DNA of 42,127 bases from an uncultured Methanobrevibacter sp. (GCF_946404245.1 NZ_CAMJCX010000012.1:1-42127); one strand, 5' to 3'; counted from the first letter of the stretch, positions 26,192-31,313 are shown. Notes: a model not told the origin generated them from the sequence alone. Program-made: numbers and translations.

Positions 26192-27061
26192 ATGAAAGAT
26201 GAAGATATTGAACGTCCACAGGCAATGAAAATTCGTCAGGGCATTCAGGATGCAATGACATATTCCCTACCGGACAAGAAATTTAATCCAAAAAATATTG
26301 ATTTAGTGGAAATTGACATTGAATTAGAGGATTTAGGCTGGAATTTCAACAATTTCAGGATTTTAAATCTAGCCGACATTCATTTGGGCCAATGGATCAA
26401 TCCAGAATATCTAAATGACTTAACCGACTATGTCAACACATTAAACATTGATTTGATAACCCTGACCGGAGATTACTTTTCATATGTTATTGAAGGGTAT
26501 GAAAAATCCCTGGAGGAATCCTTCAAGAAACTGCATGCCCCTTACGGCAAGGTAGGCGTTTTGGGAAATCACGACCATTGGATGAGCTCCAATAAAATAA
26601 GGGAAATCTTCAAAAATGCCAACATTGTTGACTTAAGCAATGATGTAATTACCCTTAAAAAAGATGGCGATTGTCTTAATATCTGCGGTGTTGACAGCTG
26701 CACAGTTTGTGCAGACAATTTAGATAAAGTAATTGCTAAAATGCCTAAAAACATTCCAAGCATTTTGCTTGCCCATGAACCGGATTTTGCAAAAGAGTCA
26801 TCACAAACCGGATTATTTGATTTGCAAATTTCAGGACATTCCCATGGTGGGCAATTTATCATCCCAAAATTTGAAACAACACCATTCAGAGGACCTAACT
26901 CAACAAAATATCCTGTTGGATTATACAAAGTCAGGAACATGATTCAATACACAAGCAAAGGGCTGGGAACCAATTCATTTAGAGTTAGAATTAACTGCAA
27001 ACCGGAAATAACTATCATTACATTAAAAACAACCAAAAAACATAAAATTGAGATAGAATGA
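26192..27061 (+). CDS. Calcineurin-like metallophosphoesterase
   Basis: The five metallophosphoesterase blocks are all visible in this 289-residue protein: LADIHLG (D-x-H), TGDYF (GD), LGNHDHW (GNHD), LLAHEPDF (H) and SGHSHGGQFIIP (GHxH). They bind a two-metal centre. It has no signal peptide or membrane span, unlike YkuE or LpxG relatives that it otherwise resembles; here the membrane part may be supplied by the next gene. A TATA-like TTATAAATA at 26159-26167 is about 27 bases from ATG 26192, and there is no binding site, so a leaderless mRNA is likely. It overlaps the next gene by 4 bases. Confidence 0.9.
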   Translation: MKDEDIERPQAMKIRQGIQDAMTYSLPDKKFNPKNIDLVEIDIELEDLGWNFNNFRILNLADIHLGQWINPEYLNDLTDYVNTLNIDLITLTGDYFSYVIEGYEKSLEESFKKLHAPYGKVGVLGNHDHWMSSNKIREIFKNANIVDLSNDVITLKKDGDCLNICGVDSCTVCADNLDKVIAKMPKNIPSILLAHEPDFAKESSQTGLFDLQISGHSHGGQFIIPKFETTPFRGPNSTKYPVGLYKVRNMIQYTSKGLGTNSFRVRINCKPEITIITLKTTKKHKIEIE

Positions 27062-29181
27062 TTAAAAACCGATTAATTTCATCATTGAGGACAATAATCA
27101 CCACCATATTGTATATATTAGGCAGTGCTATCGCAATTTATGCAGTGGATTATATCAGCACAGATTTTACTGTTGGGCCATGGTATAATGCGTTCATCAT
27201 CGTCATAGCCGTTGCAATTGCAAATGCACTTCTCTGGCCCATATTCAGACGTTTTCTGATGAAAATAATCATATTTACTTTGGGTATCGGATCAATATTT
27301 CTTAACTCAATAATCTTTTATATCGCCTCCTTATTTATCCCTGGTGTTTCAGCAGGAGTTTATGGAGTCCTGCAAGTTACAATTGTAACTGCAATAGCCA
27401 CAACATTCGTTTCACACATTACAAACACCAATTACTACGACAGATACCTGAAAAACATTTTAAGATATGCCCTAAAACAAAAAACACAATATAAAAAGAG
27501 ATATCCTGGAGTGATAATGCTTGAAATTGATGGCCTTTCAATAAATATCCTTAAAAAAGCTATTGAAAAAGGAGTTATGCCCAACATTAAAAAATGGATA
27601 GATGACAAATCACATACTCTGAAAGGCTGGGAAACAGATTTATCTTCACAGACCGGATCAAGCCAGGCGGGAATTCTACATGGAAATAATAAGGACATTG
27701 TAGCTTATAGATGGGTTGAAAAAGAAAACAACAATCAAATGATTGTTTCCGGAAAATTAAGCGATGCTCCAGAAATAGAAAGAAGAATCAGCGATGGCAA
27801 GGGCCTGCTTGTAAACGGCATCAGCATTGCAAACATGTTTTCGGGAGACAGCAAGATTCCAACATTAACATCCTCCCAATTGAACGGCATGAAAAACATT
27901 TACAACAAAACATTGGATGCAGTGTTTTTAGATGCCTACAACTATCAAAGATTAATTGTATTGTTCTTATGGGATATAGTATTAGAGTTAAAGTCCCAAA
28001 TAGTTCATCGCGTGAAAAATATACAGCCACGACTTAGAAGAACAATTGTTTATGCTGCCGTTAGAGCAGGAGCCAATATTGCGTTAAGAGAAGCAACAAC
28101 TGATGTTTTAACAAGTGAAATTTTAACAGGAAATATTGACACCGCCTATGCAACATACATGGGCTATGATGAAATTGCCCACCATTCAGGTGTTGAGGAT
28201 GACGACGTCTGGAAAGCATTGAAATATATTGATTTTCAATTTAAAAAACTAACATCAGCCATTGAAATGAGTGATAGAAATTATGAAATTGTTGTCCTGT
28301 CAGACCACGGCCAGTCCAAGGGCGCCACTTTCAAACAGAGATATGGAATCACCTTAGGGAATTATGTTAGAAAGTTCCTTCCGGACGATATGCTGATATA
28401 TAAAACAGAATACAATATTGACCACTTCAGAGATGCAGTCATTCCTGAAAATAAACAGATCAGAAATATTAAGGACAAATTTGGAAATATCCGTGAGGAT
28501 TTATTTGAAGATATCAAATCACTGCAAGACATTAGGGATGAAGTTGAAAAAAGAAAACCTGCAATAATATTTGAAAACGAGCAATACAAAAAAATACGGG
28601 ACAGATATTCAAATAGTTTAGACTATATCAGCAAATATGAAAGTGTTGAACAGAGTACCAAAAAAGCAAAAGACTCAGAATTGATTGTTTTGGGCTCAGG
28701 CAACTTAGGTTTAATTTACTTGACCCAATGGAGTCAACGCCTTACCTATGAGGAAATAGTAATGCTGTTCCCTGATTTGATTCCAGGTCTTGTAAATCAC
28801 TCAGGAATAGGATTTATACTGGTTAATTCAATAGCCAATGGAGGAATGGTCATAGGTCAGAACGGAATTTACTATCTGGAAACCGACGAGATAATCGGTG
28901 AAAATCCTCTCAAGGGCTTTGGAGAAAATGCCGCAAGACACCTGAAAAGAGAAAATTCATTTAAAAACATGCCAGACATTTTAGTCAATAGCTTTTACGA
29001 TGAAAAATATGATGAGGTATGTGCATTTGAAGAGCTGATTGGGTCCCATGGAGGATTGGGAGGGGATCAAACCAAACCATTTATTTTATATCCCTCCGAA
29101 TGGGAAGACCCCGGCGATTTGATTGGGGCAGAATCAATATATAAATTTTTAAAAAAAGAAATAGAGAATTTAAACTCTTGA
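27058..29181 (+). CDS. Holin-like membrane domain fused to alkaline-phosphatase-superfamily domain
   Basis: A 707-residue two-part protein. Residues 1-125 have four membrane spans like the phage-holin family 4 domain (IANALLWPIFRRFLMKIIIFTLGIGSIFLN). Residues 145-707 are an alkaline phosphatase/type I phosphodiesterase domain: MLEIDGLS gives the first metal Asp, TDLSSQTGSSQAGILHG the Thr/Ser nucleophile region, GYDEIAHHSG an Asp/His pair, LSDHGQSKG a second pair, and LIGSHGGLGG the last His. It is probably a membrane-anchored phosphodiesterase or phosphotransferase acting on envelope lipids or polymers. It is coupled by ATGA to the upstream metallophosphoesterase. Its stop overlaps the SirTM stop region by 12 bases. 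Confidence 0.87.
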   Translation: MIKNRLISSLRTIITTILYILGSAIAIYAVDYISTDFTVGPWYNAFIIVIAVAIANALLWPIFRRFLMKIIIFTLGIGSIFLNSIIFYIASLFIPGVSAGVYGVLQVTIVTAIATTFVSHITNTNYYDRYLKNILRYALKQKTQYKKRYPGVIMLEIDGLSINILKKAIEKGVMPNIKKWIDDKSHTLKGWETDLSSQTGSSQAGILHGNNKDIVAYRWVEKENNNQMIVSGKLSDAPEIERRISDGKGLLVNGISIANMFSGDSKIPTLTSSQLNGMKNIYNKTLDAVFLDAYNYQRLIVLFLWDIVLELKSQIVHRVKNIQPRLRRTIVYAAVRAGANIALREATTDVLTSEILTGNIDTAYATYMGYDEIAHHSGVEDDDVWKALKYIDFQFKKLTSAIEMSDRNYEIVVLSDHGQSKGATFKQRYGITLGNYVRKFLPDDMLIYKTEYNIDHFRDAVIPENKQIRNIKDKFGNIREDLFEDIKSLQDIRDEVEKRKPAIIFENEQYKKIRDRYSNSLDYISKYESVEQSTKKAKDSELIVLGSGNLGLIYLTQWSQRLTYEEIVMLFPDLIPGLVNHSGIGFILVNSIANGGMVIGQNGIYYLETDEIIGENPLKGFGENAARHLKRENSFKNMPDILVNSFYDEKYDEVCAFEELIGSHGGLGGDQTKPFILYPSEWEDPGDLIGAESIYKFLKKEIENLNS

Positions 29182-30021
29182 AAGCCAATAGTCAAAAATC
29201 TCTGATATATCTTCATCAAACCCTATTGTCTTATCTTTATTTTGAGGAATTGCCTGAGGATAGTCCTTATTCAATCTAATTAAAGTAGTATTTGGATTGT
29301 CAAAAGTCATCTGTTCAAAAGGATATCTTATAATACCTGGAGTATTATATCCGACACCCAGTTCCAGAAATACCAGATTTTTATTCTCATCAATATGGTT
29401 TAAAAATTCTGCATATTTTCCGTTCATTTCATGCCATTTAGCATCCTCAACAAAACGATTATCAACTCTTAAATTTAATTCCATCTCTTCACCACAGATT
29501 GGGCATTTTGGTATTGATTCTGTAGGTATTTTAAAATTTTTTGTATTTTCCAACCATTCGAAAACTTGATTTTCATTTGAGTACAATTTATCATGGCATG
29601 GTTTACTACATTGTAACAAGCCGTAATCCCCTTGAGTGGCAAAAATTCTGCTATCATCAAATCCATTAATCCAAAATTGAGATTCCACATTTGTTGTTAG
29701 GATAAAATAATCCTTATTTTCAACCAATTGCAGCAGTTTTTGATAAACATCAGTTTTGCCTACATCATATCTATTTGCAAAAACGTGCCTTGCCCAATAT
29801 GCCCATTTCTCTTCAGATGTTTCAAAAGGATAAAATCCAGAAGAATACATATCAGTAAAACCGTATTCTTTTATGAAATCTTTGAAATACCTTTCAAACC
29901 TTTCCCCAGTGTACTCTATTCCTGCTGCAGTTGACAGACCTGCTCCAGCACCAATGAGAATGTAATCTGCATTTTTAATAGCATCATAAGCATTATCTAA
30001 TCTTTGTACAAAACGTTCCAT
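29170..30021 (-). CDS. SirTM-class sirtuin, protein ADP-ribosyltransferase
   Basis: A 283-residue sirtuin of the class M type. The NAD site GAGAGLSTAAGIEYTGERF is at residues 24-42. TTNVESQFWINGF carries Asn111, and ATQGDYGLLQC has Gln130 where deacetylase sirtuins have the catalytic His. A C-x3-C and C-x2-C pair (138/142 and 173/176) should bind zinc. SirTMs are known to ADP-ribosylate a lipoylated GcvH-like protein in Staphylococcus and Streptococcus, and the residues seen here match those of that class. ATG 30021 is preferred over ATG 30024 because GGTGAT ends at 30025. It lies 9 bases after the macrodomain gene. Confidence 0.9.
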   Translation of the reverse strand: MERFVQRLDNAYDAIKNADYILIGAGAGLSTAAGIEYTGERFERYFKDFIKEYGFTDMYSSGFYPFETSEEKWAYWARHVFANRYDVGKTDVYQKLLQLVENKDYFILTTNVESQFWINGFDDSRIFATQGDYGLLQCSKPCHDKLYSNENQVFEWLENTKNFKIPTESIPKCPICGEEMELNLRVDNRFVEDAKWHEMNGKYAEFLNHIDENKNLVFLELGVGYNTPGIIRYPFEQMTFDNPNTTLIRLNKDYPQAIPQNKDKTIGFDEDISEIFDYWLSRV

Positions 30022-30030
30022 CATATCACC

Positions 30031-30807
30031 TTAAAATAATAATTTTTTATATATTGAATAGTCATCATCCGTAAACACATTGAAAATAATATGTTTCAAA
30101 GTAGTTTCATTGTTTTCTAAATACTCATTAACAGTTCTAACCGCAATTTCTGCCGCCAATTCCTGAGGAAAATTGAATACCCCAGTTGAAATGCAGCAGA
30201 ATGCAATGGATTCGAGTTCATTATAGCTTGCTATTTCCAAACAGGATCTATAACAGCTGGCCAATGCCTCACAGTCATCATCTGAAGGTTTTAATCCCTG
30301 AGGGATAGCAGGCCCAACAGTATGAATTACATATTTTGAAGGCAGGTTATATGCTCCTGTGATTTTTGCCCTGCCAACTTTTTCATCCTCGTTTTGTATT
30401 TTCATTATCGTATTACACTCATCCCTTAACTGAACGCCTGCTGCTGAGTGAATAACATTGTCAATACAGTTGTGAAGAGGAATAAAGCAACCCAATAACT
30501 TTGAGTTTGCAGCATTAACAATTGCGTCCACGTCTAATGTTGCAATATCCCCCTGCCAAAGCATGAGTTTGCCATTGACTTCTTCAATATCATCAACAGA
30601 AGTCAAGTCTTTATTTAATGTTTCATTTGTTAAAAAATCATCTTGAACTTTTAAAAATTCCTCTGATACTTTAGAGGGCATTCTTACATTCATCAATGCA
30701 CGAAGCAAATTTCTTTTATCCTGATAATCCTGAGGAATATCAATTGATTCTGCTCTTTCATCTACTAAGTAATTAATTAAAAAATCCAATTGTTCGCGTG
30801 AATTCAT
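30031..30807 (-). CDS. Zinc-type macrodomain, protein-ADP-ribose hydrolase
   Basis: The 258-residue protein has the long N-terminal helical extension of the PRK04143-type family ([26 protein letters not shown]). A macrodomain follows: [42 protein letters not shown], and later [10 protein letters not shown] and [18 protein letters not shown]. Cys107, His112 and Cys114 are spaced as the zinc ligands of Zn-macrodomains, which remove ADP-ribose added by SirTM. AGGAGGGAT precedes ATG 30807. It is the first gene of the macro-SirTM operon and is divergent from the HxlR gene. Confidence 0.92.
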
Positions 30808-30863
30808 CTAATCCCTCCTAATTTGTTAATTATAATATTTATTTAGATATTTAAATGATTTTT

Positions 30864-30898
30864 GTAACTTTTAAGAAACCATGTAACCAAAAAGTAAC
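30864..30898. promoter_or_regulatory. Three GTAAC repeats between the macrodomain and HxlR genes
   Basis: GTAAC occurs at 30864, 30883 and 30894, with spacings of 19 and 11 bases, so the copies fall roughly on the same face of the helix. They lie between TATA-like sequences for the macrodomain gene (minus, near 30848-30857) and HxlR (plus, ATATATAA near 30902-30909). The latter is about 25 bases from the HxlR ATG, suggesting a leaderless or short-leader mRNA. A binding site for the HxlR protein is inferred. Confidence 0.4.
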
Positions 30899-30929: not shown

Positions 30930-31313
30930 ATGAACACCGAAAAAATAATTTGTCCAGTTGACAGAACTCTAAACCTAATCAATAAAAAATGGAGCATACA
31001 AATCATAAGAGACATGTTTTTTGGCAAAAAACATTTTAAGGAATTTAAAGAGGACAAACCCAAATTAAGCAATAAAGTTTTATCAAATTGTTTAAAGGAA
31101 TTAGAAGAAAATGGTTTGATTGAAAAACATGTTTTGGACACAACACCAATAACTACAGAATATCACTTGACTGAATATGGCAAATCAATGAACAAAATCA
31201 TCTATGAACTCGCAATGTTCACATTACATGATTCAAATGACAACAGTTACTCTGACGAAATTAGAAATGATTTGAAAAAAACATTTAAAGAAAAATTAGA
31301 GATAAATGATTAA
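30930..31313 (+). CDS. HxlR-family winged-helix transcriptional regulator
   Basis: A 127-residue winged-helix protein. It starts with the family motif CPVDRTLNLINKKWSIQIIRDMFFGKKHFKEF, followed by LSNKVLSNCLKELEENGLIEK (recognition helix and turn), and YHLTEYGKSM, the wing end. The Cys near residue 9 is the conserved one used as a redox or ligand sensor in several members. It is divergent from the macrodomain-SirTM operon and just ahead of cbiE, whose ORF abuts or overlaps it. It could regulate either or both. No Shine-Dalgarno-like sequence precedes ATG 30930. Confidence 0.93.
   Translation: MNTEKIICPVDRTLNLINKKWSIQIIRDMFFGKKHFKEFKEDKPKLSNKVLSNCLKELEENGLIEKHVLDTTPITTEYHLTEYGKSMNKIIYELAMFTLHDSNDNSYSDEIRNDLKKTFKEKLEIND

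Follow-up and report, generated by a model that had tools for sequence, protein, structure and literature searches.

What could a class M sirtuin (SirTM) and a zinc macrodomain (Zn-Macro) act upon where no lipoyl carrier is encoded beside them? To our knowledge, SirTM has been characterised biologically only in systems whose substrate is a lipoylated GcvH-L. The question is raised by two adjacent genes in the window analysed here, a stretch of 42,127 nucleotides from an uncultured Methanobrevibacter sp. The two ORFs of the original prediction were confirmed at the positions it gave, both on the minus strand (Table 1). As a novelty the stand-alone pair was not supported, since independent SirTM plus macrodomain operons had already been described in 2015 (Rack et al., PMC4518038) and the minimal operon of Methanobrevibacter oralis was crystallised and assayed in 2024 (Ariza et al., PMC11490716). 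The window pair thus adds another species to a published arrangement, for which the targets were called unknown by the latter authors (PMC11490716); what we add is a search for lipoyl genes in the genome and the family, the partnership with an HxlR regulator, a conserved operator and a set of redox neighbours.

Table 1. Positions in the window of the macrodomain-sirtuin operon, its candidate control elements and the divergent regulator.
Feature	Position	Strand	Basis
Class M sirtuin (SirTM), predicted ADP-ribosyltransferase (writer), 284 aa	29170..30024	-	phmmer, AlphaFold model, conserved residues
Zn-Macro, predicted ADP-ribosylhydrolase (eraser), 258 aa, first operon gene	30031..30807	-	MorMacro 8RSI, NCBIfam
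TATA-like box ATTTAAATA of the macrodomain-SirTM operon	30848..30856	-	Directly downstream of operator; promoter role inferred
Candidate HxlR operator GTTAC-N6-GTWAC-N3-GTTYC-N6-GTTAC	30864..30898	-	Conserved in relatives and in a second genus
HxlR/DUF24-family regulator, divergent, Cys8	30930..31313	+	PF01638, 1e-22

The sirtuin gene begins with tandem ATG codons (30024 and 30021); relatives mostly align from the second, which is probably the true start, and our Asn112 and Gln131, counted from the first, are the Asn111 and Gln130 of the original prediction, counted from the second. No Pfam or NCBIfam model matched the protein in profile searches, and a phmmer search of the PDB retrieved the S. 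pyogenes SirTM (5A3A, 2e-61), the fungal Mfs1 fusion (8RSN, 1e-31) and no further match. An AlphaFold model obtained from a 29-sequence alignment (pLDDT 94.9, pTM 0.91) superposed on 5A3A over 279 residues with an rmsd of 1.6 Å and a Z of 36.0, and on the fungal SirTM with a Z of 29.9, whereas the classical deacylases (Hst2/SIRT5) reached about 19 at best; a Foldseek search was concordant, and the modelled fold is nearer to SpySirTM than to the deacylases. We also looked for a loss of the active site and found all four class M marks as used in the 2015 paper (Asn, Gln, Arg and GVGx[NT]TP; PMC4518038). The catalytic HG is replaced by QG (TQGDYG, Gln131), invariant across the 29-sequence alignment, and Asn112, Arg186 and GVGYNTP are the counterparts of SpySirTM Asn118, Arg192 and GVGx[NT]TP; all four are conserved in the aligned relatives. 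Judged by this alignment and the modelled fold, the window sirtuin is a SirTM, and the writer assignment of the original prediction stands on the 5A3A match, the fold and the active-site residues. In three other loci (L109, L110 and L111), a second sirtuin gene directly follows SirTM; this tandem paralogue no longer has the active site (AGGEYLS replaces GAGAGLS, SNGD replaces TQGD, and GVGxNTP is missing) and is possibly a pseudoenzyme partner. Three Bacteroidales SirTMs (L084, L085 and L093) have lost the four zinc-ribbon cysteines and kept the NAD and QG motifs.

The macrodomain matched MorMacro of M. oralis (8RSI) over its full length (6e-124, about two-thirds identity over 258 residues), and the NCBIfam protein-ADP-ribose hydrolase model scored 363 bits against a cut-off of 272. 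Its zinc motif, Cys107, His112 and Cys114, exactly the residues named for the eraser beforehand, aligned with those of 8RSI, 5KIV and 8RSM, and it replaces the glycine-rich catalytic loop, as in a MacroD-type Zn-Macro. The activities expected of the pair have been shown by others in relatives, transfer for SirTM and hydrolysis for MorMacro (PMC4518038, PMC11490716), and the window proteins are assigned them by analogy. The operon consists of the pair alone, with 6 bases between the Zn-Macro stop and the sirtuin ATG, and is flanked by a convergent phosphodiesterase gene, the 3' end of which is overlapped by the SirTM stop over 12 bases, and by the divergent HxlR gene. The minimal operon of M. 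oralis (8RSI-8RSK; PMC11490716) belongs to a different species of the same genus and has the same macrodomain-SirTM arrangement and zinc motif, with no GcvH-L or LplA adjacent in either; the papers on it that we found and read make no mention of the divergent HxlR or its operator. The fungal Mfs1 (8RSN) shares the order of macrodomain before sirtuin and the lipoyl-independent context, although it is a single fused polypeptide, the sirtuin part of which is about 28% identical where the two align.

A Zn-Macro gene was adjacent to or near SirTM in 96 of 105 loci. Beside the SirTMs of L051, L054, L092 and L121 no adjacent macrodomain gene was detected, and in the first two a protein of 263-279 aa without a Pfam match occupies its position. 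The window Zn-Macro starts with ATG (30807). Across the genus, 26 of the 44 distinct sequences of this gene have ATA, ATT or ATC aligned to the start (non-ATG starts are found, for example, in L034, L035, L036, L041, L048, L125, L130, L131 and L136), nearly all of them with a normally placed Shine-Dalgarno; in L130 and L131 a stop codon lies immediately 5' of the non-ATG start. Control genes of the same loci were started by ATG in 28 of 30 cbiE, in all 18 phosphoesterase and in 37 of 43 SirTM genes (plus 3 GTG), and in 26 of 39 HxlR genes, a count affected by shifted N-termini. These codons suggest a conserved non-AUG initiation of the eraser in the genus.

Is a lipoyl carrier encoded elsewhere? 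GcvH, LplA and other lipoyl genes were not seen around the pair. In the own genome, a MAG of 1.83 Mb that is 87% complete, a profile search with the GcvH model gave nothing over the cut-off; the single weak match was the biotinyl domain of PycB (pyruvate carboxylase subunit B), the only PF00364 (biotin/lipoyl domain) protein found there. No lipoate ligase was present in this 87% complete genome among the BPL/LplA/LipB family, of which the sole member is a biotin ligase gene placed directly after a biotin-carboxylase-type, pycA-like gene. The lipoate-ligase and lipoyl-domain searches cover the own genome; to narrow, though not close, the gap left by its completeness of 87%, the GcvH search was extended to 139 Methanobacteriaceae genomes, 75 of which carry SirTM. 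Nearly all matches were in long frames of about 565-610 aa, a length that fits PycB (the identity was confirmed in the own genome only), a few fell in shorter or cut frames, and in none of the 139 genomes did a match lie in a frame with the length of GcvH (about 130 residues). Among the 39 bacterial genomes that carry related pairs, 27 likewise gave no GcvH match at 1e-5. The absence of GcvH and LplA from the genome, together with family matches of PycB size, argues that the target of the pair is very probably not a lipoyl carrier, and the pair generally exists without one. The absence of carrier and ligase that the original prediction noted in the window was borne out by the whole-genome search for GcvH-L, LplA and lipoate genes that it had proposed, and its doubt about what the substrate in this archaeon is was likewise supported.

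The macrodomain itself is consistent with this reading. In SpyMacro, Arg172, Lys175 and Arg183 lie at the interface with GcvH-L (PMC11490716), and the aligned positions of the window protein are Ala167, Gln170 and Asp178, so that the basic carrier-binding patch is gone and its charge partly reversed. MorMacro hydrolyses Glu/Asp-ADP-ribose and cannot demodify GcvH-L (PMC11490716). Compared with the extended operon of S. aureus and S. pyogenes (PMC4518038), the window shares the SirTM active site, the Zn-Macro, their linkage and an association with redox enzymes, but the operon is without GcvH-L, LplA2, OYE and LLM genes, no GcvH was found in the genome, and the GcvH-L-facing basic patch is absent from the Zn-Macro.

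The same observations bear on the idea that the pair modifies the biotinyl domain of PycB, a biotin carrier being regulated as the bacterial system regulates its lipoyl carrier. PycB is the sole swinging-arm carrier found, the only PF00364 protein and the best match of the GcvH model in the genome, its biotinyl domain has the GcvH-L fold, and pycB is immediately followed by an Old Yellow Enzyme (OYE) family gene (L001, 1804-2805), OYE being a component of the extended operon. However, GcvH-model matches of the PycB type are present in genomes of the family whether or not these carry SirTM, no copy of the candidate operator was found beside pycB in the own-genome search, and the loss of the carrier-facing basic patch from the Zn-Macro speaks against such a target. 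The genome holds at least six OYE-family genes, which makes the adjacency weak, and for this reason the one next to pycB was discarded as a lead. We consider PycB an improbable target.

The divergent HxlR with a conserved Cys, to which the original prediction had ascribed a possible redox input, resembles HxlRs of the redox type, and its gene overlaps the cbiE start. Its nearest solved relatives are YodB (5HS7) and YybR/HypR (4A5M/4A5N), which are thiol-based sensors. Cys8 stands before the first helix, aligns with the Cys of YodB where the match begins and is kept in nearly all SirTM-linked HxlRs. The window protein belongs to the same fold family and has its N-terminal Cys at the position of HypR Cys14 and of YodB Cys6 (PMC8063818), but a clear partner matching YodB Cys101 is missing. 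Of the 39 bacterial SirTM sequences, 13 have an HxlR gene within four genes, and so do three archaeal genus groups. Outside the genus block it is divergent in another genus (L120 and L122), co-directional with the pair in two species (L124 and L133) and three or four genes off the pair in a third group (g9). Genomes carry 1-14 HxlR genes, for which one within 5 kb of the pair is expected by chance in about 2% of loci; since the contexts were hand-picked, we set the low P value of the linkage aside. In two genomes (G097 and G140) the only HxlR gene sits at the pair. The pairs of the Methanosphaera-like group (g12) and those at most bacterial loci had no HxlR that we could see beside them, so the regulator is not obligatory. 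On the basis of this recurrent gene order, we regard the divergent HxlR as a true partner of the pair.

A four-box candidate operator in the HxlR/macrodomain intergenic region is kept in relatives, and also in a second genus, whose SirTM has only about 37% identity and in which the first pair of boxes forms a perfect palindrome, GTTACTATTTAGTAAC. In the intergenic alignment, the TATA-like box is conserved as AAAATCATTTAAATA. A three-box pattern had 33 exact matches across the 139 genomes (reversed control, 0), and a comparison of coordinates placed 26 of them at SirTM loci; in the own genome this locus was the only exact match. The concentration of exact matches at SirTM loci and the single copy in the own genome point to a dedicated local repressor; the HxlR would bind these boxes. 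A GcvH-L/LplA pair under the same regulator elsewhere was looked for and not found, the genome having no GcvH and a sole exact operator copy, at this locus. A wider regulon was also sought and rejected: allowing one mismatch in the own genome gave 1 match against 2 in the reversed control, and only the exact site at the locus is therefore trusted.

In 30 genus loci the pair lies in one syntenic block with HxlR, cbiE, phosphodiesterase and phosphoesterase genes. The phosphodiesterase gene of the window (27058-29181) converges on SirTM and keeps its syntenic place throughout the genus; its product, of 707 aa, combines a PF04020 membrane domain of four helices with a domain of the type I phosphodiesterase/nucleotide pyrophosphatase family. 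Redox genes recur near the pairs of other lineages: a glutathione peroxidase directly after SirTM or within three genes of it in 11 g12 loci (downstream of SirTM in L074, L086, L102, L105 and L114, among others), a PNPOx-like flavoprotein in 15 loci, and also flavodoxins and an aldo/keto reductase. There are non-redox neighbours too, such as transporters and acetyltransferases. The redox neighbours fit the connection with oxidative stress that has been put forward for bacterial and fungal SirTM systems (PMC11490716). No substrate candidate emerged among the conserved neighbours, no partner gene being constant across contexts. A 264-aa gene at the GcvH-L position in Clostridia (cluster 28), which has no Pfam match and looks like a metallo-beta-lactamase-type protein, was rejected as a lead, as it was not seen at archaeal loci.

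Macrodomains process O-acetyl-ADP-ribose and other ADP-ribose derivatives. Considering this activity and the lack of a constant partner protein across loci, the pair might have no separate target protein and serve chiefly to process a small molecule or to modify SirTM itself, through NAD+ turnover, free ADP-ribose derivatives or automodification. We judge this unlikely, since it is a protein that SpySirTM modifies (PMC4518038), and MorMacro takes ADP-ribose off proteins (PMC11490716).

In a quick tree from which no root was inferred, the genus SirTMs form one clade (32 rows, SH-aLRT 99) near bacterial sequences, and those of other archaeal genus groups fall among Clostridia or on a long branch, which makes several transfers of SirTM between gut bacteria and methanogens likely, with no direction assigned. 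In L120 and L122 (G009 and G006), SirTM is very diverged (36-37% identity), with HxlR, macrodomain and operator all retained at 52-60% identity, as would be expected of a replaced or fast-evolving writer. Both writer/eraser pairs for ADP-ribosylation and defence proteins with a Sir2 domain are known, and the pair might be a toxin-antitoxin or anti-phage module of the DarTG kind, with SirTM as toxin and the macrodomain as antitoxin. We think this very improbable, because PADLOC had no model for SirTM, Zn-Macro or HxlR at E 0.01, the close-relative search returned no relative on viral contigs, the syntenic position is stable across the genus, where the sequences cluster in a vertical-looking manner, and the SirTM fold differs from that of DarT.

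We believe that a redox-gated, reversible mono-ADP-ribosylation switch, in which writer and eraser act on a non-lipoyl target, is the likely explanation for this locus. Computation gave the identities of the proteins, the residues of their active sites, the order of the genes, the lack of lipoyl carrier genes, the recurrent HxlR linkage and the conserved operator; how HxlR binds and represses, what part Cys8 plays as a trigger, what the target is and how the cell benefits are inferred as follows. HxlR would bind the GTWAC boxes between the divergent promoters and repress both its own gene and the macrodomain-SirTM operon, until Cys8 reacts with an oxidant, disulfide or electrophile and the regulator is released. 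SirTM would then move ADP-ribose from NAD+ onto a target other than a lipoyl carrier, probably an acidic side chain in a protein whose gene lies elsewhere, and the Zn-Macro would strip it off once the stress has passed. Signals other than redox can drive HxlR proteins.

More tentatively, and with more doubt than belief on our part, the locus may represent a lipoate-free archaeal ADP-ribosylation pathway that combines a thiol-gated local repressor, a new class of protein target, horizontal sharing with gut Clostridia, Bacilli and Bacteroidales also without GcvH, and an eraser throttled at translation by AUA/AUU starts in many species. This lineage would uncouple the switch from lipoylation altogether, and with the two separated the target would show the general function of the pair. 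The operator and HxlR offer a concrete route to the inducing signal, some Methanobrevibacter species being cultivable. The lineage would also place reversible ADP-ribosylation alongside redox genes in the dominant host-associated methanogens.
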